From Zhongshania sp. (GTDB taxonomy: Bacteria > Pseudomonadota > Gammaproteobacteria > Pseudomonadales > Spongiibacteraceae), in NCBI RefSeq assembly GCF_029212375.1, contig NZ_JARGNU010000010.1, positions 62,001 to 126,000 of the forward strand: a stretch of 64,000 nucleotides of DNA, given 5' to 3'. Made by a program: the position numbers and the translations under genes. Shown one piece after another: positions 22,731 through 31,792 of this stretch; the first letter of the stretch is position 1; each line of letters starts with the position of its first letter. The notes below the pieces were generated by a model. The model saw only the letters and a program-made list of their open reading frames with translations, ran no database searches and had not been told where the DNA came from.

Positions 22731-22840
22731 GCCCACCTTCCACGAAGGCCATCCCCAAACGGTGGCCTTGCAAGCAACACCACTGAGGGCTATCACAAAA
22801 AACAATGAAACCAAGTCAAAAATGCTCAAAAAATAGTCTA

Positions 22841-22868
22841 GTAACAACTTCCTATAGCAACTTATAAT
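22841..22868 (+). promoter_or_regulatory. Candidate promoter of the cytosine methyltransferase gene
   Basis: GTAACA (22841-22846), 16 bases, then a perfect TATAAT (22863-22868), 35 bases before the methyltransferase start. The flanking DNA is AT-rich relative to gatB, marking the left edge of the accessory region. Confidence 0.5.
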
Positions 22869-22903
22869 CTACTGGCGATAACATTAAGCCAAGCAACCTA
22901 AAC

Positions 22904-23962
22904 ATGACCAAACAACTATCGATCAAAGCTGTCGATCTATTCTGCGGCGCAGGCGGGCTGACCAACGGCTTGTTAAAAACTGGAATCAATGTTGTAGCTG
23001 GCTACGACATTGAAGAATCATGTCGATTCGCTTATGAATATAATAACAACGCCGTATTTATTAATCGTTGCGTAACATTGCTTACCAAGCATGACATCGA
23101 GCAGCACTTTTCCGGCGCGGACTACACCCTACTGGCTGGGTGCGCGCCTTGCCAACCATTTTCGACTTACTCTCGGGCCGCTAAACAACAAGGACTTAAA
23201 TTTGATAAAAGATGGACACTACTCTCTAGCTTCGGGAATCTAATCAAATTAGTAAAACCTGACTTTGTAACAATGGAAAATGTCCCAGGACTAGCTGATC
23301 AAGAAGTTTTTAAAGACTTCCTATTATTGTTGAGTAAATATGGATATCACACTGACTTTAAAATCATCTTCTGCCCTGACTATGGGATGGCGCAAACCCG
23401 AAAGCGCTTAGTGTTAATTGCCTCTAGACTTGGAGAGATCACTATCCCAAGACCAACACACAACCCAAATACCTATCTAACAGTGGCCGATATTATAAAG
23501 GGGCTGCCAAAAATCGCTGCAGGGGAATCATGCTCTGGAGACGCATTGCATAGAGCTTCACGCCTCTCCCCGATCAATCTTCGTAGAATAAGGACATCTA
23601 AGCCCGGCGGCACTTGGCTAGACTGGCCTGAAGAACTACGGTCTAATTGCCACAAGAAAGAATCAGGAAAAACGTTTCCTAGCGTTTACGGTCGTATGTC
23701 TTGGGATGAACCATCGCCAACCATAACCACTCAATGCAATGGATATGGAAACGGCCGTTTTGGCCATCCATCACAAGATAGAGCTATAAGTCTTCGTGAA
23801 GCCGCAATGCTTCAATCCTTTCCCAAAAATTATCAGTTCCATCCCAAAGACAAAATCGCTCAGATAGCCGCACTCGCAAAAATGATTGGTAATGCAGTTC
23901 CAGTACGGCTCGGAGAGGTTGTCGGTCAGTCTATCAGCTCAGCAGTTCCTCACAACCATTAA
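22904..23962 (+). CDS. C5-cytosine DNA methyltransferase
   Basis: A 352-residue Dcm-type enzyme that methylates carbon 5 of cytosine in a specific site. Motif I DLFCGAGGLTNG (11-22), motif IV with the catalytic Cys GCAPCQPFS (C83), motif VI MENV (E125), motif VIII around QTRKRLV, a short target-recognition region, motif IX (SPTITTQ, GFGH-like GRFGHP) and motif X GNAVPVRLG are all in order. It looks complete and active. No Vsr endonuclease is nearby. It converges with the HEPN/DUF262 pair (stops two bases apart), which suggests it is the modification half of a defence set. Its recognition site cannot be read from sequence. Confidence 0.95.
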   Translation: MTKQLSIKAVDLFCGAGGLTNGLLKTGINVVAGYDIEESCRFAYEYNNNAVFINRCVTLLTKHDIEQHFSGADYTLLAGCAPCQPFSTYSRAAKQQGLKFDKRWTLLSSFGNLIKLVKPDFVTMENVPGLADQEVFKDFLLLLSKYGYHTDFKIIFCPDYGMAQTRKRLVLIASRLGEITIPRPTHNPNTYLTVADIIKGLPKIAAGESCSGDALHRASRLSPINLRRIRTSKPGGTWLDWPEELRSNCHKKESGKTFPSVYGRMSWDEPSPTITTQCNGYGNGRFGHPSQDRAISLREAAMLQSFPKNYQFHPKDKIAQIAALAKMIGNAVPVRLGEVVGQSISSAVPHNH

Positions 23963-23964
23963 CT

Positions 23965-24687
23965 TTAAGCCGTTTTATACTTGCAGTGATCAATAAAATA
24001 TTCGTAAGCACTTATTATGCAAGCAAGGTAGTCCTTAACGATGTTGATCAACCTCCGAAAATCGCTAGCGACATGCCCTTCCCCGCATTCAACAAAAGAT
24101 AACGAGCCATGAGCAAGTTTATTTCTTATGTCCTTTATCAGCCTTATTGGGCCTTTTTCATCACGAAATGGCCGATTAACAGATTGATTTATTGCGCGAG
24201 GAAGATGGATATCCACACCAATAGTTTTGCTGAAATTCTTTATTTCCGTACTACCCCAACTTCCACCGCCACCAGCAAAGATTTTTAATTGAATATCGCT
24301 TTCACCCATAACCTGGCGAAAAAGATCTAAGGCTCCTTCAAGCCGTTTTTCGTAACTAAGTGATTCATGAGGCTTCAGTATAGACTTCACATAAATCGCT
24401 CGCATTTTTTCCGTGAAGTCACAAAGATTATTGCCTATCCCATCTAATGCGTGCCGTTCGACAGCTTCAATGCACATTGAAACCGTTGATTCAACAAGAT
24501 TGTAAAGATGGAGATATATACCTGAGTACATTATCTTTTGCTGTTCTGGTGTAATTCGATAATCGTCATCACCAGCTTTTATAAATGCCCCTCCTGACCT
24601 GACCGCGATTTCAATCTTATCGACAAGCTCAAAATAACTTTCAATGCCTGAGACCCTATCATCGAATGTAGTTCTTACTAATTCCAT
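23965..24687 (-). CDS. HEPN-domain protein (MAE_28990/MAE_18760-like)
   Basis: A 240-residue cytosolic protein resembling the MAE_28990/MAE_18760 family of HEPN-like nucleases. The HEPN RNase signature R-x4-H is visible as RNKLAH (R188, H193) in a helix, preceded by a helical core (SGIYLHLYNLVESTVSMCIE, 55-74) and a Gly-rich loop (GGGGSW, 139-144). HEPN proteins are usually metal-independent RNases used in abortive infection or toxin systems. It begins one base after the DUF262 stop, so the two are surely co-translated. Family assignment is from memory of motifs, so moderately sure. Confidence 0.75.
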   Translation of the reverse strand: MELVRTTFDDRVSGIESYFELVDKIEIAVRSGGAFIKAGDDDYRITPEQQKIMYSGIYLHLYNLVESTVSMCIEAVERHALDGIGNNLCDFTEKMRAIYVKSILKPHESLSYEKRLEGALDLFRQVMGESDIQLKIFAGGGGSWGSTEIKNFSKTIGVDIHLPRAINQSVNRPFRDEKGPIRLIKDIRNKLAHGSLSFVECGEGHVASDFRRLINIVKDYLACIISAYEYFIDHCKYKTA

Positions 24688-24688
24688 A

Positions 24689-25735
24689 TCAGAGACCTAG
24701 CAATGCATTACGAACATAATTAATTCTTCCCTGCAATCTGCGTATTGCGTTGGCCCCGTCAGACCGGATCTCCCCAATGAAGCCATCACTCACAAGTATT
24801 TTAGTCACATCCTCTTTTGACACCACCAAATTAGGGTCTTGTTTTAGAGCTAAGTACGAACCGATAAAAATGGCTTCAAATCGCGCGCGCGGCGTAGTTT
24901 TTGCTTTAGGAGTTTTCCGAAATCCATGCTCGAATGATTTAGATACAAACTCTAAAGTTTCATTAAATCGATCTGAATATTGATCCTTTAAGTTTGGATT
25001 CGTAGCAAACTCAGAGTTCATCCGTTTGATGTACCTAAAAATAAATGCGGACACGTCGTCACGATAATCATCCAATCCATCAGAATACGCAAAAAATCGC
25101 GAAATAAGCTCTTCACGCTCTCGCTCATTCTTTTGTTTCGTCGAAACTGGAGCTAATTTATTAAACAGTGGGTTTTCAGACAAAGTATTTAAGAAACTCA
25201 TAAATGGCCCACGTAATGCGCCTCGCCTTACCTCCGCAGGGTTAGCGACTTTACTACCGGTATTAATTCGTTCAAACAGGTCAATTCTTGCTTCTATATC
25301 AGTATCGTCCGATAAAATAATTCCTCTAATCGACTTATTAAGAACCTTACGTTGCCGCGAAAGAGGAAGATCAAAAAATCGAGTATTATTAAGTAGATCT
25401 AGCCGCTCCAGACCACTGAGTGCTAAATTATTTTCTAAATACTCCGCTACAGTTCGTAAGCGTTGCGAACCATCCACTATTTCCAACTTTCCAGTCTCGT
25501 CGTTTTGCCAAAAGAACACAAATGGCACCGGAAGTCCGATGAGTAAGGACTCAATAAACTTGGATTTCCTTGTAGCATCCCACGTAAATTCACGCTGATA
25601 CTCAGGCACTGTGTACTCTTCTTTTGACACCTTCTGCGCCAAAATCTCAAGAGTGTACTCTGAAGTATAGAAGTCAATTTTCTTAGAATAGTTAAGAATC
25701 TGCTCTTCAGCCCGTTTTTGTGCGTCCTTATCCAT
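24689..25735 (-). CDS. DUF262 domain protein (ParB/GmrS-like fold)
   Basis: A 348-residue DUF262 protein. The family marks are VPEYQREFTW (43-52) and VDGSQRL (87-93, the DGxQR nucleotide-binding motif shared with ParB/sulfiredoxin folds and GmrS). The DUF1524 HNH nuclease that follows in full GmrSD is absent; instead there is a helical C-terminal half. In GmrSD and SspE-type proteins DUF262 hydrolyses NTP and governs modification-dependent restriction. Paired here with a HEPN gene and facing a cytosine methyltransferase, it is likely the sensor or regulator of a restriction-like system (inference). Confidence 0.85.
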   Translation of the reverse strand: MDKDAQKRAEEQILNYSKKIDFYTSEYTLEILAQKVSKEEYTVPEYQREFTWDATRKSKFIESLLIGLPVPFVFFWQNDETGKLEIVDGSQRLRTVAEYLENNLALSGLERLDLLNNTRFFDLPLSRQRKVLNKSIRGIILSDDTDIEARIDLFERINTGSKVANPAEVRRGALRGPFMSFLNTLSENPLFNKLAPVSTKQKNEREREELISRFFAYSDGLDDYRDDVSAFIFRYIKRMNSEFATNPNLKDQYSDRFNETLEFVSKSFEHGFRKTPKAKTTPRARFEAIFIGSYLALKQDPNLVVSKEDVTKILVSDGFIGEIRSDGANAIRRLQGRINYVRNALLGL

Positions 25736-25937
25736 ATAGAACTGATCCCTTTATTCGTCCTGTAAACTTACATTTAAATCAATAACCAAACCGCCCAAGG
25801 TTAACCACCGAGCAATACTATTAACGTAACAGCTTACGATCTTGCACGAAACTGGAACTGGAACTGGTCATAATGTATCCTGCGTATGAACTGTGTCTAT
25901 GAGCAGTATTAGTTAGCGATATTTACGGTTAGCGATT

Positions 25938-27365
25938 TCACTCAGATTTATTCGAGTAATCGGCCGCGGCCCAGAACGAGCGCTTACGCCAGTGCTTAGC
26001 TTGTAATTCGGTGATATACGCTTGGCCGCTAATTAAAGGCTGATAGGCCTTTTGTGTTTTATCCAGCGTTAGCAAGGCATTAAAATAATCGGCGGCGTGG
26101 TGATATGCGGTGCTGCGGCCGCGATCTAAAATGTCGCTCAATAGTGTTCGGTAGCACACTATGGCGGCGAGTTTGTCTTTGTGTTGCTTAAAAACGGAAA
26201 GCCAATCGCGTACGTGGCTGTAATGAAACGTTGCTATTTCTGCCGCTCTGGTCACGAGGGTAGTTGCTGCCAATTTTTCTTCGTTTACTAGCAACAACAT
26301 CTCAATGGCGTTGCCAATATCCTCATTGTTTGGCGCGATATTAAGCACGGTTTGGCGCAGTGCTTTACGCTCTTTTTTATCTGCCATTTCCCAGTAACAA
26401 AGCAGGTTAACTAAACTCGGCGTGGTAGCAAAGTCCTTGCGAAAGTTTTCTTTCACTTCAGCAATTTTGCCTTGTTCCAACAGTAATTGCGTAGTGAGTT
26501 TTTTGTGCAGGCCGCGCTCCGCGCTCCAGCTGGGTTGATCTAACCAGTGCTGGGCGCGCTCGTAATTTTCGGTGTACAGGGCAAATTCAATCAATGACTG
26601 CATTTGTAGTTCATTGGGCTGGGGGCTTTGCAGCAGGGTGGCTTTTTCAAACATGGCTAAGTCTTCAAGTGCCTCAGCCACTGACCGCAAGCCAATACTG
26701 GCGTGCGCAGCGCTTGGGTTGTAATTGAATCGCTCTGATTTATCTGACCTAGCCTGCAGCAAGGCTTTTTTAATATTATTTTCAAAACGCCACGCGAGCT
26801 GGGTAAGCTCGTCGTCGCTTAACAGCAACGCGCCATGACGGATAATATTATCAAAGCAGCCGTAATCGTTATTATCGAAATAAAAGCGGACTTTTGCCAC
26901 CCAATCTATTTTAGTATCAGTTTGTTCCGCCCGTATTTGTGCGGCAGTATCGAGCCATTGATCAATGGCTTCTCGATAAACTTCACCAATATCGCCGCTA
27001 GAATCGTCGCAGCGATTCATTATGCTCTCGCAGGTTTCGAGAAAGGCTTCTGTTAACGCCAGTGCCGACACGGGATTTTGCTCCCGCACCAGAGTATCTA
27101 TGTCGATCAGCAAACTTTGCAGGCGACAGGAAAAATCATGCACGGATTTCCAGTCTATATATTCATGGCTGGTCTTAAGCTCATCAATTTGCCAAAGCAC
27201 AACTTGCTGTAAGTCAGCGCTAGACCCCATGTTATCTGACATACCATCGACAGCAAGATGCCGCTCAATAATATCGTCTATATCGCCGTAAATACCGTAA
27301 ACAGCGGCGAGCATATTAATCAGTTGCTGCTTTTTTAAGGGCTTTAAGGCTTTTTCAATCGACAT
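25938..27365 (-). CDS. Unknown helical protein, last gene of the SNF2/AlbA_2 operon
   Basis: I do not recognise this 475-residue protein. It has no signal peptide, membrane helix, zinc motif or nucleotide motif. It is nearly all helix, with repeated short helical pairs in the C-terminal two thirds (for example ALYTENYERAQHWLDQPSW and TTQLLLEQGKIAEVKENF), so an alpha-solenoid/TPR-like scaffold is likely. The block ALALTEAFLETCES..MNRCDDSSGDIGEVY weakly recalls DUF6880 or SWIM-associated proteins. The start ATG at 27365 is one base after the preceding stop; a longer reading from 27392 would overlap it. It is coupled to the AlbA_2 gene and probably a partner of it or of the helicase. Confidence 0.8.
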   Translation of the reverse strand: MSIEKALKPLKKQQLINMLAAVYGIYGDIDDIIERHLAVDGMSDNMGSSADLQQVVLWQIDELKTSHEYIDWKSVHDFSCRLQSLLIDIDTLVREQNPVSALALTEAFLETCESIMNRCDDSSGDIGEVYREAIDQWLDTAAQIRAEQTDTKIDWVAKVRFYFDNNDYGCFDNIIRHGALLLSDDELTQLAWRFENNIKKALLQARSDKSERFNYNPSAAHASIGLRSVAEALEDLAMFEKATLLQSPQPNELQMQSLIEFALYTENYERAQHWLDQPSWSAERGLHKKLTTQLLLEQGKIAEVKENFRKDFATTPSLVNLLCYWEMADKKERKALRQTVLNIAPNNEDIGNAIEMLLLVNEEKLAATTLVTRAAEIATFHYSHVRDWLSVFKQHKDKLAAIVCYRTLLSDILDRGRSTAYHHAADYFNALLTLDKTQKAYQPLISGQAYITELQAKHWRKRSFWAAADYSNKSE

Positions 27366-27366
27366 A

Positions 27367-28608
27367 TTAATTGGCTTCTTTACTCGCGGCATAAATTGTT
27401 AGCAGTAATTCATTGTCGTCTATCAGGCTATATTCAGGGCGCTTGGCGCTAAGCCGCTCGCTGGCATTCATGATTTTAGGTACACCCTCGCCCCGCCGCT
27501 CAATAAGCGCTTGGCGCCCAGCTTCGTCGCGAGCGTTGTAGTAGCGGCTAAGGAGGTTAACGATATTCTCATTGCGGGTGACGGTATTGTCCATTAAGCC
27601 GTCTAAGGTCAGGCTATTGGCTAAGGCGCCGGGGCTGTATAGCTCAAGGCGATTGGCAAACATGTGCAGGCGAATACGGCGGCCGGTCATGGAATAGTCG
27701 CGGTGGGCTACGGCGTTAACAATAGCCTCGAACACCGCGCCCAAGTCATATTGAGGCAGGTCTTGACGACCCACGGTTTTGACCGCTTCTACACGCATGT
27801 TTTTGCGAACAAATTCAAATGCGCCGTTAATTTGCTGGTCTAGCGGGCCGTTAAAATCGGCGGCGTCGAGCTGGTCGTTAGCATCGCGCTCCGTACCGCT
27901 ATAACAAACACATTGAATATAGGCGTTGCTCAGCCATTGCCCCGGCTCTTGGCACAGCAGCAAAACCCCGCTCACTGACAAGCCTATTTCACCCTCATTA
28001 ATCGCGCTGAGGTGTAATTTACGCAGTTGCTCACTTTCTGGGCTATTCGCTTTTAAAAAGCGCTGCAACAGGCTTTTGTCGATATCGGCCAAGCTGGTAT
28101 TGGGTACATGGGTTTCGTCAAAACGAATAAGCCGCGACTGGCTGCGCTGCTGAAATAAACGCGCCAAGACTTCTGGCTTCATTTCTTGTTTGGTGGAGCC
28201 AACCCGCTGGTAGTAGCGGCCATTGCTGGCGTGCACCATGATGCTACGGGGAATTTCAACGTACACCACATTTTTAAGATCGCCCTGCCGGTCGGGCAGT
28301 TGTAGCAAGCGGGTATCTACTTTTACCGGAGGCTGGATTTGCTGCTGACTTATATTCACCACCCATTCTTCCACTTTGGCAACTTGCTCGTCGGCAATAC
28401 CAATGACATCGCGGTTTTTGTCGTCTACGCCAAGTAATAAGCGCCCGCCTTGGCCATTGGCAAAGGCGGCGATTTCGTGGGCCATTTTGTCGCGATTTGG
28501 GCCAACGAGGCGCTCGCCTTCAAATTTTAGGCCCTTAAATTCGATGCTAGAGTCTTCGCCAAGGCGAATATGAAACAGCAGCTCTTTGCTGAGTTTTTCT
28601 CTGTTCAC
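27367..28608 (-). CDS. AlbA_2 / Schlafen-like ATP-binding protein
   Basis: A 413-residue protein of the bacterial AlbA_2-HATPase group. The AlbA_2 (Schlafen-core-like) domain covers about residues 12-130: EDSSIEFKGLKF (18-29), then MAHEIAAFANGQGGRLLLGV (42-61). The C-terminal part has the HATPase_c_4 pattern FEAIVNAVAHRDYSM and the sequence LELYSPGALA. Family members are described as ATP-binding putative DNA/RNA-binding or transcriptional regulators, and Schlafen-type cores can be nucleases. It lies between the SNF2 helicase (16-base gap) and the unknown helical gene (1-base gap). Its role in the operon is unknown. Confidence 0.85.
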   Translation of the reverse strand: MNREKLSKELLFHIRLGEDSSIEFKGLKFEGERLVGPNRDKMAHEIAAFANGQGGRLLLGVDDKNRDVIGIADEQVAKVEEWVVNISQQQIQPPVKVDTRLLQLPDRQGDLKNVVYVEIPRSIMVHASNGRYYQRVGSTKQEMKPEVLARLFQQRSQSRLIRFDETHVPNTSLADIDKSLLQRFLKANSPESEQLRKLHLSAINEGEIGLSVSGVLLLCQEPGQWLSNAYIQCVCYSGTERDANDQLDAADFNGPLDQQINGAFEFVRKNMRVEAVKTVGRQDLPQYDLGAVFEAIVNAVAHRDYSMTGRRIRLHMFANRLELYSPGALANSLTLDGLMDNTVTRNENIVNLLSRYYNARDEAGRQALIERRGEGVPKIMNASERLSAKRPEYSLIDDNELLLTIYAASKEAN

Positions 28609-28624
28609 GCCATTCTCCCACCGG

Positions 28625-31444
28625 CTACTGGCTTAATGTCCAGCGAATGCTGAACAGGGTTTGTTGGTTTGTACTTAATTCCAGCTTGGCACTTATCTCG
28701 TCTAATAAGGCGTCTTCTTCGGCCTCAATATGTTTTCTAGCTTCGTGGTATTCGCTTAAGGCATCGTCGCGTTTGCGTTCGAGCTTACGCAATGCTTTCT
28801 TTGCCGCCACTTTCTCTGCGGTCGAGGCCAGTTGCCGAGCGGCCTTTTTAAGCAGTTTTATTTCCTCGTCCAGTTCGGTAACGGTGAGCAAGAGCGCTTG
28901 GCGGCGATCTTCTGCCCAGCGCTCGAGCTTGTCGTTTTCTTGCTCAAAATACTGCTCTAGCTGAGCTTGGGTCTGCTGCTCTTTGCTGGCAATGGCGTCG
29001 TTAGCCAATGCTTCAAACACCGAGGTATCGAGACTATGCGGCTCTTGCAGGACGCTCGCGGGAATACACAGTAAATGGGCGGCGTTGTCTAGGCTCAAGT
29101 CTTCACCCGCGTCGGTCTTCGCTAACGCAAGCAGATGATGCTCTTCAGTATTGGCGTATTTAAAGGTGAGTTTAATAAGCTGCAATACCCCGCTTTGCCC
29201 AATTAGGGGCTGCAGCGCAGCATAATGCCCACCGTCTAAGGCACCATAGCAAAATTGCAAATGGGCTTGCTTAAGGCTGCGCGCCTTTGCGCGGTGAACT
29301 AAGTCCCACGCTAAGTAATGTTCACTGCTTTGCAGCCGGAAAAACTCTGCGTTATGTTCCTCGGCCAGTACCCAGCTTAAATCGTAGCGGCTGTCTTGGT
29401 AATGAAAATGGTTGCGGTTAAACCTCGCCTCTGGCAATTCTGCTCTGGCGAGGTCTAGCAATACTTGCTCATAGTCTTTTAGAAAATCCTTACTGCGATC
29501 GCGTCGAGTTTTTAGCGCGGCAACAACATCGCGGTCGAAATGACTCAGTAGGGTTTGGCGAGCAGCCTCTTCTTTAACCGACAGCACCTCTTCCATATCG
29601 CGCTGTAACTGGTCAAATTCATATTGTATTGCCTCTTCATTACGGCACTTTTGATAAATTTCGTATATCCGTTTTTCAATATCTATCGCGCTTTCAATGG
29701 CACCGAGAATTTCGTCAGAGGCGCCAAATACCCCTTCAAAAAGTTTGAGCTTTTCACTGAGCAATTGAAACACCCGCTGGTCTGCAGGGTTTTTACGGTT
29801 TACAAAATTGACCACCACCACGTCATTTTTTTGGCCATAGCGGTGAATCCGGCCGATACGTTGCTCTACTTTTTGGGGATTCCACGGCAGGTCGTAATTA
29901 ATGAGTACGGAGCAAAACTGCAGGTTAATACCTTCGCCACCGGCTTCGGTAGAGATCAAAATATCGGCGCCATTACTTTTAAAATGATCGACAATGGCGG
30001 CTTTCATGTCGGCGGTTTTCGAGCCGCTAATCCGTGCTGAGCCTTGATGCTGGCTTAGCCAATTTTGATAGATGGCTTTGGATTGAGCATCGTTATTGCT
30101 GCCATTCAATAACACCGTGCGGCCTTGAAAGCCGTTATTTTCCAGTAAATCGCTCAGGTAGCGCTGGGTGCGACAAGATTCAGTAAACACGACGGCCTTG
30201 CGTTGGCCGCCGAGACTTTCAGTCATTTCCAGCGCTTTTTCTAATACCCGCAGCAAAGCGTCACCCTTGGCATTGCTGGTGATAGTTGCGGCCAACTGCT
30301 GATATTCACTTAATTGCGCGATTTCTTCGGCAAGCTTGCTCTGTTTCGAGCTAGGGTTCGCTGGCTCGTCGTCGAACTGATCCAGCCAATCGTCGGCTTC
30401 TTCTAGGTCGGTCAGTGAGTCTTCGTCTAATAACTGCTGCGCTTTTAAACGCGTGATCATGCCCGCCAAAGTATCGGCAAGGGCGAATGACGAAGACGCT
30501 AAAATCTTGCGAATACCAATACTCACCAAGTGCCTAGCCTGAAAGGATATCGCTTGGAGATCGGGCTGCTGCAAGTAGGCTGATATTTTCTGATACAGCT
30601 CCCACTCCTCGGCGTTAGGGATAAAGTCCTGTGTTAGCGAGTAGCGATTGGTAAAGTTGATACCGCCCTCTTGCTGTACTTGTTTGCGTAAGGTTCGGTG
30701 GCACAGGGGGGTAATGCGTTTTTTGAGATCTTCTAGCGCTGCGCCGCTGCGTTGACGATTTACATAGAGAGTACGAAAAGACTTAGCATCGCCAAAATAG
30801 TGCTCGTCGATCACCGAAGCAAGACCGTACAACTCCATTAGATTATTTTGAATTGGCGTTGCCGAGAGCAGCACCCGCAACTCAGCATGACGGGTCGCAT
30901 CCACCACCGCCTTTGCCTGTTTACTGCCCTTGCTCTGATACACATTCCGGAGCTTGTGAGCCTCGTCAAACACCACTAAATGCCAGTCAATTAGTCCAAC
31001 GCGGTCTTTTTGCGCGGCAATATACTGGTACGAGCAAATAACGATGTTTTCAGTTTGATCAAAGGGATTCGTCAAGCCTTGCTGGCGCTGCTCCTTGGCG
31101 ATTTTACTGTCGATAATGATTGAAGGTAGCTCAAACTTATCTGCCAGCTCCTGGTTCCACTGCTTTCTTAATGATGCGGGGGTGACCAGCAATATTTTCT
31201 TTTTACCCTCAGCCCATTTTTGGGCAATAACCAAACTGGCCTCAATAGTTTTACCAAGGCCCACTTCATCGGCCAATAAAACTCCTTTTGCCAAGGGGGA
31301 CTTTAGCGCGAAGCAGGCTGCCTCAACTTGGTGGGGATTCATATCCACCCGAGCAGAGGCCATGGTTCGGGATACTTGGTTTTCTATGCGGCCACTTTGC
31401 GTTAGCCAGTGGGCAAAATAGGCACTTTGATGAGGCGTAAACAC
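28625..31444 (-). CDS. SNF2-family DNA helicase/translocase
   Basis: A 939-residue superfamily 2 SNF2-type ATPase. Motif I is DEVGLGKTIEA (59-69, K65), motif II is DEAH (160-163) and motif III is SATPIQN (194-200). The helicase C domain carries ILISTEAGGEGINLQ and QRIGRIHRYGQKNDVVV. A long C-terminal region ends in a coiled coil (about 820-930, very Lys/Glu-rich). It lacks the Tudor-like N-terminus of RapA/HepA, which argues against that housekeeping enzyme. It resembles SNF2 proteins of defence islands (compare DrmD of DISARM), though no drmA/drmB/drmC or methylase of that type is adjacent. Confidence 0.92.
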   Translation of the reverse strand: MFTPHQSAYFAHWLTQSGRIENQVSRTMASARVDMNPHQVEAACFALKSPLAKGVLLADEVGLGKTIEASLVIAQKWAEGKKKILLVTPASLRKQWNQELADKFELPSIIIDSKIAKEQRQQGLTNPFDQTENIVICSYQYIAAQKDRVGLIDWHLVVFDEAHKLRNVYQSKGSKQAKAVVDATRHAELRVLLSATPIQNNLMELYGLASVIDEHYFGDAKSFRTLYVNRQRSGAALEDLKKRITPLCHRTLRKQVQQEGGINFTNRYSLTQDFIPNAEEWELYQKISAYLQQPDLQAISFQARHLVSIGIRKILASSSFALADTLAGMITRLKAQQLLDEDSLTDLEEADDWLDQFDDEPANPSSKQSKLAEEIAQLSEYQQLAATITSNAKGDALLRVLEKALEMTESLGGQRKAVVFTESCRTQRYLSDLLENNGFQGRTVLLNGSNNDAQSKAIYQNWLSQHQGSARISGSKTADMKAAIVDHFKSNGADILISTEAGGEGINLQFCSVLINYDLPWNPQKVEQRIGRIHRYGQKNDVVVVNFVNRKNPADQRVFQLLSEKLKLFEGVFGASDEILGAIESAIDIEKRIYEIYQKCRNEEAIQYEFDQLQRDMEEVLSVKEEAARQTLLSHFDRDVVAALKTRRDRSKDFLKDYEQVLLDLARAELPEARFNRNHFHYQDSRYDLSWVLAEEHNAEFFRLQSSEHYLAWDLVHRAKARSLKQAHLQFCYGALDGGHYAALQPLIGQSGVLQLIKLTFKYANTEEHHLLALAKTDAGEDLSLDNAAHLLCIPASVLQEPHSLDTSVFEALANDAIASKEQQTQAQLEQYFEQENDKLERWAEDRRQALLLTVTELDEEIKLLKKAARQLASTAEKVAAKKALRKLERKRDDALSEYHEARKHIEAEEDALLDEISAKLELSTNQQTLFSIRWTLSQ

Positions 31445-31446
31445 CG

Positions 31447-31650
31447 CTACTGCCCCCCCTTGCCATCACGCTTTTGCTCTGAATCTAGCCAGCGATCTAT
31501 GGCTAGCTTGCCAAACCGCCACTGCTTGCCTAATTTTTGGCCAGGCACCCGCCCCTCTTGCACCAGTTTGTACAAGGTTGACTTAGGAATTTTTAAGTAG
31601 AGCGCCAATTCCTCAAGGGTCAGAACTTGATCGCTGTTTATATTAGACAC
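31447..31650 (-). CDS. Excisionase-type helix-turn-helix protein
   Basis: A 67-residue winged-helix protein of the MerR/excisionase (AlpA-like) type: VLTLEELALYLKIPKSTLY (9-27) is the helix-turn-helix, and GRVPGQKLGKQWRFGKLAIDRWL completes the wing, as in 'excisionase family DNA-binding' proteins. The start is GTG at 31650 with AAGAG eight bases upstream. It ends two bases before the helicase start, so it leads the operon. It probably regulates it, since a palindrome lies in its promoter. No integrase is present nearby. Confidence 0.9.
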   Translation of the reverse strand: MSNINSDQVLTLEELALYLKIPKSTLYKLVQEGRVPGQKLGKQWRFGKLAIDRWLDSEQKRDGKGGQ

Positions 31651-31692
31651 CGCAACACTCTTGTTATTAACAGTATTTAGCCAATAATAGGT

Positions 31693-31732
31693 AGTATTTG
31701 CCAGTCTTGGGAAAATCGCAAGTGTCAGACAC
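31693..31732 (-). promoter_or_regulatory. Candidate promoter and palindromic operator of the HTH-SNF2-AlbA_2 operon
   Basis: On the minus strand TTGCGA (31716-31721) and AATACT (31693-31698) are 17 bases apart, about 43 bases before the GTG. A perfect palindrome GTGTC-A-GACAC (31722-31732) abuts the -35 element. A similar half site (GGTGTC) overlaps the GTG start at about 31646-31651. This layout fits control by the HTH protein, but that is inference. Confidence 0.4.
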
Positions 31733-31792
31733 CCGTTGTTATTGCTCCTGCGCTATGAACATCGCGGCCACGGTCAATTTAGCTAATGAGAC

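Follow-up and report, generated by a model that had tools for sequence, protein, structure and literature searches.

The window analyzed here, a 64,000-nucleotide stretch of a Zhongshania sp. contig (NZ_JARGNU010000010.1, positions 62,001 to 126,000), carries a four-gene operon at positions 25938-31650, whose second gene encodes a RapA-like SNF2 protein. We found four intact minus-strand open reading frames (ORFs) in the order helix-turn-helix (HTH) regulator, SNF2 protein, AlbA_2/GHKL protein and DUF6880 protein. The SNF2 protein belongs to a family that sits beside the Mod and Res genes of type III restriction-modification (R-M) systems, neither of which we found in the window's genome. The genes of the operon are:

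31447-31650, minus strand: HTH_17/excisionase-type regulator gene, 67 amino acids, GTG start (Pfam HTH_17, 52.9 bits)
28625-31444, minus strand: RapA-like SNF2 protein gene, 939 amino acids, GTG start (Pfam SNF2-rel_dom and Helicase_C)
27367-28608, minus strand: gene for a Schlafen AlbA_2 plus HATPase_c_4 (GHKL-like) protein, a candidate RNase effector, 413 amino acids, GTG start (Pfam)
25938-27392, minus strand: DUF6880 protein gene, 484 amino acids (upstream ATG) or 475 amino acids (ATG at 27365) (Pfam PF21810)

An earlier, sequence-only reading of this DNA had described four minus-strand genes separated by 2, 16 and 1 bases, and the ORF coordinates bear this out, the last gap applying when DUF6880 starts at the ATG at 27365. 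Its call of an excisionase-type HTH gene likewise agrees with the Pfam match, and helicase motifs are present in the SNF2 protein, as are GHKL motifs in the AlbA_2 protein. The same reading had placed one promoter with a palindrome ahead of the HTH gene. A palindrome, GTGTCAGACAC, does exist at 31722-31732, but its arms are only 5 bases long, below the reporting size of our repeat search, and the promoter-like match at 31713-31684 (9/12) lies in a region holding 10 such matches versus 6.3 ± 2.5 in shuffles; we regard the two as weak evidence for a possible promoter or regulator site. The HTH protein scored 61.6 bits against NCBIfam MAD1 and so does not qualify as the MADS protein MAD1 at the curated cut-off of 80. 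An HTH protein 73% identical to it precedes SNF2 in locus L303 and one 59% identical does so in L011, and the gene was present in 2 of the 9 AlbA_2-bearing relatives tested.

To place the SNF2 gene, we drew on at least 80 loci from a species-genome scan, 77 from viral contigs, and samples of 369 genomes of the class and 293 of the order. We excluded viral loci L133-L167 (35 of the 77) from the counts, since their SNF2 matches are partial or distant. Of the 166 loci counted, 133 had a full-length frame once 30 short or low-scoring ones and 3 lacking an SNF2 frame were set apart, and 104 of the 133 had at least 7 kb downstream. These 104 are neither independent, given partly overlapping samples (L044 and L107, for example, are nearly the same), nor complete, there being more loci in the species genomes than the 80 taken. 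Mod and Res both lay on the strand of SNF2 within 11 kb in 98 of the 104. Of the six exceptions, three (the window, L042 and L121) had neither gene, and L073, L087 and L310 had Mod only. L042 is a solitary intact SNF2 gene in a Desulfovibrionaceae metagenome-assembled genome, with no Mod, Res or recognized gene of the kind found between SNF2 and Mod (below) within 10 kb. Plasmids gave the same picture: all 7 relatives opened, from 1012 matching records (39–51% identity over the full length), adjoin a site-specific methyltransferase and a DEAD/DEAH helicase, with SNF2 standing first in 6 of the 7.

This gene family has been described before. The SNF2 protein of the window is 38% identical over its full length to its homologue in E. 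coli D8. At the DNA level, the D8 gene is 97.8% identical to its counterpart in E. coli NCTC86, where the order is SNF2, methyltransferase, DEAD/DEAH helicase. According to Murray et al. 2021 (PMC8259958), the third gene of the type III systems Eco86II and BspHIV is an SF2 helicase-like ATPase encoded 5′ of mod, and such an ATPase is reported close to type III systems in more than 500 genomes. From the strain and the gene order it follows that the NCTC86 SNF2 gene is Murray's third gene. With full-length relatives beside Mod and Res and this homologue, the SNF2 protein is that of SNF2-containing type III R-M systems, which overturns the earlier view that the set resembles no system that can be named.

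Two side observations concern this family. A shorter SNF2 subfamily (about 870 amino acids, near the length of DrmD_b) occurs in L077, L127 and L129-L131, where a C5-methylase-like gene directly precedes SNF2 and Mod-Res lie downstream in some. In E. coli records H71-H99, the HTH gene overlapping the SNF2 start is labelled mads1 in RefSeq, and a near-identical SNF2 on a Salmonella plasmid (L008) adjoins a methyltransferase and a DEAD/DEAH helicase; MAD1 labels may therefore mark SNF2 type III loci.

We compared the operon with the loci closest to it. L302 (genome G644) reads SNF2, AlbA_2, DUF6880, Mod, Res, with SNF2 70–71% identical to that of the window; L303 (G006, same genus) reads HTH, SNF2, AlbA_2, Mod, Res (68–70%); and L304 (G499) reads SNF2, AlbA_2, Mod, Res (63–64%). 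The last order recurs in L306 and in L307, where Mod is split over two frames, while L305 has one additional gene between AlbA_2 and Mod, with Res downstream, and L183 has a second AlbA_2 gene before Mod and Res. A tree of 137 sequences placed the window as sister to L302 plus (L303, L304) with support 0.997, and L011 outside this group. The L011 contig ends too soon after AlbA_2 to show whether Mod-Res follow; at L011:5956-7826 a frame of about 160 amino acids (YecA/UPF0149-like by eye) comes after AlbA_2 and is followed by nuo-like frames on the opposite strand, and this contig end looks chimeric.

Neither Mod nor Res was found in the island that holds the operon. The Mod protein of L303, used as a query, had no match in the window's genome (G000) and, as a positive control, matched G006 (its source), G644 and G499; the Res protein of L303, a query without its own positive control, also had no match in G000. 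The only N6_N4_Mtase (PF01555) match in that genome is a 326-amino-acid frame on another contig. We also screened the 202 bp downstream of DUF6880 for remains of Mod and saw no similarity, a 16-codon frame near the L302 Mod start not being evidence of one. The missing genes cannot be put down to a contig break, as the window is an interior part of a contig of 133,549 bases. With both genes sought in the window's genome and neither found, we do not file the operon as a type III R-M system. Since Mod and Res are present in the sister loci L302, L303 and L304, the simplest reading of the tree is that they would have been lost on the window's branch.

We saw no decay in the genes that remain, which fits continued use or a recent loss. 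At 159 SNF2 columns with 95% conservation elsewhere, the protein of the window departs 3 times, as compared with 2–4 in its sisters (over 134 SNF2 sequences the median is 1, and 44 of the 134 depart at 3 or more), and its AlbA_2 protein departs from none of 60 highly conserved columns. The window's branch in the tree measures 0.19, versus 0.19–0.33 for the sisters.

We then examined the space between SNF2 and Mod, hereafter the slot. Over the 112 loci with Mod downstream, this spacing was at least 300 bases in 65 and less in 47. The slots held 92 frames, of which 79 were scanned with Pfam; the over-long gap of L073 accounted for 7 of the 13 dropped, and the rest were a fragment of Mod and 5 further short frames. 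Among the first 25 of 42 families matched, and bearing in mind that one protein can match several, we counted AAA_15 (16), AAA_21 (15), AIPR (11), SLFN_AlbA_2 (9), DUF4276 (6), AAA_13 (4), Abi_2 (3), GmrSD_N, Fic and Peptidase_S8 (2 each), and ThsA_Macro, DUF6880 and one transposase (1 each). Slot proteins also matched PADLOC AbiU, AriA, HEC-01A and other models, many of these being AAA cross-matches. AAA/AbiEii and subtilase genes were also seen in the slots of L003-L316. In the SNF2-bearing operons, the only ones surveyed, the slot is thus often filled by seemingly exchangeable genes, many of predicted abortive-infection type. We found no published description of an effector slot between SNF2 and Mod, or of an SNF2-AlbA_2-DUF6880 set, in a literature coverage that left out subscription papers and most preprints.

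The two slot genes of the window were examined individually. The AlbA_2 protein matched Pfam SLFN_AlbA_2 at 69 bits and HATPase_c_4 at 56 bits. In the alignment with SLFN14, its residues E18, E23 and D63 fall on positions 206, 211 and 249, which we take to be the catalytic RNase triad; E18 and E23 match SLFN14 E206 and E211, two other SLFN14 chains listed alongside carrying Ala at one or both. Across 19 aligned proteins, E18 and E23 are kept in all and D63 in 17, so that the Schlafen acidic triad is present. The L302 AlbA_2 protein (L302:12525-13775) is 54% identical to that of the window and 65% to that of L183, as compared with 70% between the L302 and window SNF2 proteins, a disparity suggesting that slot genes are exchanged in a mosaic fashion inside the operon.

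The DUF6880 protein, which the sequence-only reading had called an unknown helical protein, matched PF21810 at 109 bits (cut-off 27.3) and no PADLOC model. The single-sequence structure model shows helices only and is unusable, with a predicted local distance difference test score (pLDDT) of 45.7. As a member of a Pfam family the protein does have relatives. One stands in the same position in L302 at 42% identity, making the window and L302, which continues with Mod-Res, the only 2 of 133 full-length loci with DUF6880 after SNF2-AlbA_2. Counting the window's own, 11 of the 369 class genomes held DUF6880 above its cut-off, and none of the 11 regions fetched from the other 10 genomes holds an SNF2 gene of the operon's family (G297 has one elsewhere, L183). 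We accordingly rejected DUF6880 as a marker of the system. The co-occurrence of the four families that the earlier reading had proposed as a check was not borne out either, as HTH-SNF2-AlbA_2-DUF6880 was not seen again free-standing. A distant DUF6880 relative occurs in 54 plasmid records, the single one opened having no R-M gene annotated beside it, and no DUF6880 or AlbA_2 relatives were confirmed in viral contigs. DUF6880 genes were also noticed near R-M genes (Mod and Res hidden Markov model hits) in L328 and, by eye, near CRISPR genes in L331.

Around the operon we delimited an island and a second group of genes:

22731-31792, strand not applicable: 9,062-bp island between orf96 (after gatB) and smrA, from same-genus site comparison
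25736-25937, minus strand: stretch of 202 bp where Mod would begin in relatives; no Mod similarity seen
24689-25735, minus strand: DUF262/GmrSD_N (ParB-like) gene of a separate cassette (GmrSD_N, 83.8 bits; 41% GC)
23965-24687, minus strand: HEPN_MAE_28990 gene of the same cassette as DUF262 (39.7 bits, cut-off 26.8)
22904-23962, plus strand: C5-cytosine DNA methyltransferase gene of the same cassette, convergent (DNA_methylase, 186.6 bits)

The island looks acquired. It fills the convergent gap between orf96 (a 96-amino-acid ORF after gatB) and smrA, a gap of 5 to 124 bases in all 17 other same-genus genomes examined, none of which has the island at this site; L303, the same-genus locus, lies on a different contig from the smrA of G006. 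No integrase or transposase was recognized among the larger frames of the island. It is composite, the operon genes having 47–52% GC as compared with 40–45% for the cassette, whose three genes stand together at 22904-25735. According to a table in PMC3710099, ParB/DUF262, HEPN MAE_28990 and a DNA methylase form an operon type, and we found the same trio on the three Roseomonas and Rhodococcus plasmids opened (L333-L335), with no SNF2 of the operon's family annotated nearby; in L335 the methylase is likewise convergent. Of the 293 order genomes, the window's is the only one with a match to the cassette's HEPN protein at E 1e-10. As the sequence-only reading had expected of a defense locus, the operon does adjoin another defense-type cassette.

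Taken together, these observations indicate that the operon very probably derives from an SNF2-containing type III R-M operon. We hold with moderate confidence that it corresponds to the regulator, SNF2-motor and cargo portion of such an operon, without Mod-Res, working as a restriction-less abortive-infection module. A possible mechanism, which we put forward only tentatively and mostly from what is known of the protein families, is one of SNF2 sensing and AlbA_2 RNA cutting. The SNF2 motor, predicted to translocate on DNA, would sense invading DNA; the Schlafen-type AlbA_2 protein, presumably held off until then by its GHKL ATPase part, would cut RNA; the probably helical DUF6880 protein may hold or tune the complex, and the HTH protein would control the operon's promoter. 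The candidate for an undescribed defense system put forward in the sequence-only reading thus survives in part: a defense-type operon with an SNF2 motor and a Schlafen-type candidate effector does lie in an acquired-looking island, but it very probably derives from a known kind of type III R-M operon.

Several points weigh against the restriction-less module. Even in complete systems, the extra ATPase is dispensable for methylation, and its peptides were not seen in the cleaving Eco86II fraction (PMC8259958). The SNF2 gene is kept where a slot gene is missing (the 47 of 112 loci with less than 300 bases to Mod). At E 1e-40, 12 of the 369 class genomes have an AlbA_2 homologue; in 2 of them SNF2 adjoins it, and the other 10 lack an SNF2 match at E 1e-150. 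AlbA_2 is thus not dependent on SNF2 and may have another role, such as transcription control. The trigger without Mod-Res would be obscure, and what is left may be an idle remnant of recent origin.

This last alternative, in which Mod-Res were recently deleted, perhaps on arrival of the cassette, leaving genes that are useless and not yet decayed, seems to us somewhat unlikely. The window lacks both genes where three sister loci have them, without a homologue found elsewhere in its genome, and L042 and L121 show that 2 more of the 104 loci have neither. Set against it are the intact four ORFs and overlaps, conserved columns kept as in the complete sisters, and a branch no longer than theirs, although all of these would equally fit a very recent loss. 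A module swap, with SNF2-AlbA_2-DUF6880 re-joined to the DUF262-HEPN-C5-methylase cassette as a hybrid guarded by 5-methylcytosine, is in our view quite unlikely. DUF262 and HEPN do share the operon's strand and come 202 bp behind DUF6880, at the place of Mod-Res in L302, and the cassette is a known methylase-linked trio, but its lower GC, its own 202-bp leader, its occurrence on plasmids without SNF2 and the lack of a second pairing among the order genomes, where its HEPN protein is confined to the window's own, all speak against it.

The sequence-only reading had favored an autonomous, undescribed four-gene defense system, for which four intact, tightly packed genes within an island are what one would expect. 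With the set not seen again without Mod-Res, DUF6880 after SNF2-AlbA_2 so rare, and 0 of the 11 other DUF6880 regions fetched holding an operon-family SNF2, we consider this very unlikely. A housekeeping RapA locus, one of the outcomes which that reading had named as fatal to its proposal, has next to no probability. The SNF2 protein scored 177.7 bits against NCBIfam RapA (cut-off 576), and its structure model aligned to RapA over 713 residues, about RapA 122-967, with the N-terminal part missing, as the reading had said. Strong SNF2 matches (E 1e-150) occurred in just 19 genomes in each sample, out of 369 for the class and 293 for the order; of the 11 other same-genus genomes among the latter, 1 had such a match.

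A broader picture, speculative and unlikely to hold in full, is that SNF2 plus a swappable slot gene forms a portable abortive-infection module guarding Mod-Res, which here would have been freed and re-docked onto the 5-methylcytosine HEPN-ParB cassette as a restriction-less SNF2-Schlafen system. If this were true, the so far unexplained third gene in type III R-M systems would serve as a sensor that fires the slot effector. Slot genes beside the helicase-like ATPase suggest a testable answer to its role, left open by Murray et al. 2021 (PMC8259958). The window offers a natural experiment, with motor and slot gene persisting in the absence of Mod and Res, and pairing it with the complete same-genus L303 would tell what the motor does apart from restriction.

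We compared the operon with known defense systems. The SNF2 protein matches DrmD models of DISARM at 652–655 bits (best PADLOC match DrmD, 654.8; NCBIfam DrmD_b, 652, best stretch DrmD_b positions 17-653 of 868), yet falls under the DrmD_b cut-off of 950. Among the island proteins scanned, no drmA, drmB, drmC or other DISARM gene was found, the sole DrmA-model match listed being SNF2 itself. A RapA-like SNF2 is common to the operon and to BREX type 3 and BREX-related systems (BrxHII; PMC12839542), and the protein scored 159–236 bits against PADLOC BrxHI and BrxHII, a helicase for which BREX has no curated cut-off to set against; PglZ, PglX and BrxC were not matched among the same island proteins. 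That source also presents a Schlafen RNase with a minimal histidine-kinase part as a widespread auxiliary. The operon did not reach the NCBIfam cut-off for ZorD. The earlier statement that the genes fit none of the DISARM, BREX and Zorya sets therefore stands as to the DrmD, ZorD and MAD1 cut-offs missed and the partner genes lacking in the island, but not as to novelty, the family being known from type III R-M.

The DUF262/ParB-HEPN MAE_28990-methylase operon has its counterpart in the neighboring cassette, outside the four-gene operon. With the vertebrate Schlafens SLFN11, SLFN13 and SLFN14, the window shares an AlbA_2 domain with a matching acidic triad, here fused to a GHKL ATPase part and with a nuclease role that is predicted. 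The closest likeness is to the type III R-M systems Eco86II and BspHIV, which have the same SNF2 family at full length, upstream of Mod-Res in the window's nearest relatives. Whereas SNF2-containing type III R-M is known, what is new here is a form without Mod-Res that keeps the predicted translocase and a Schlafen-type candidate effector, led by an HTH gene and with AlbA_2 and DUF6880 in the slot after SNF2.

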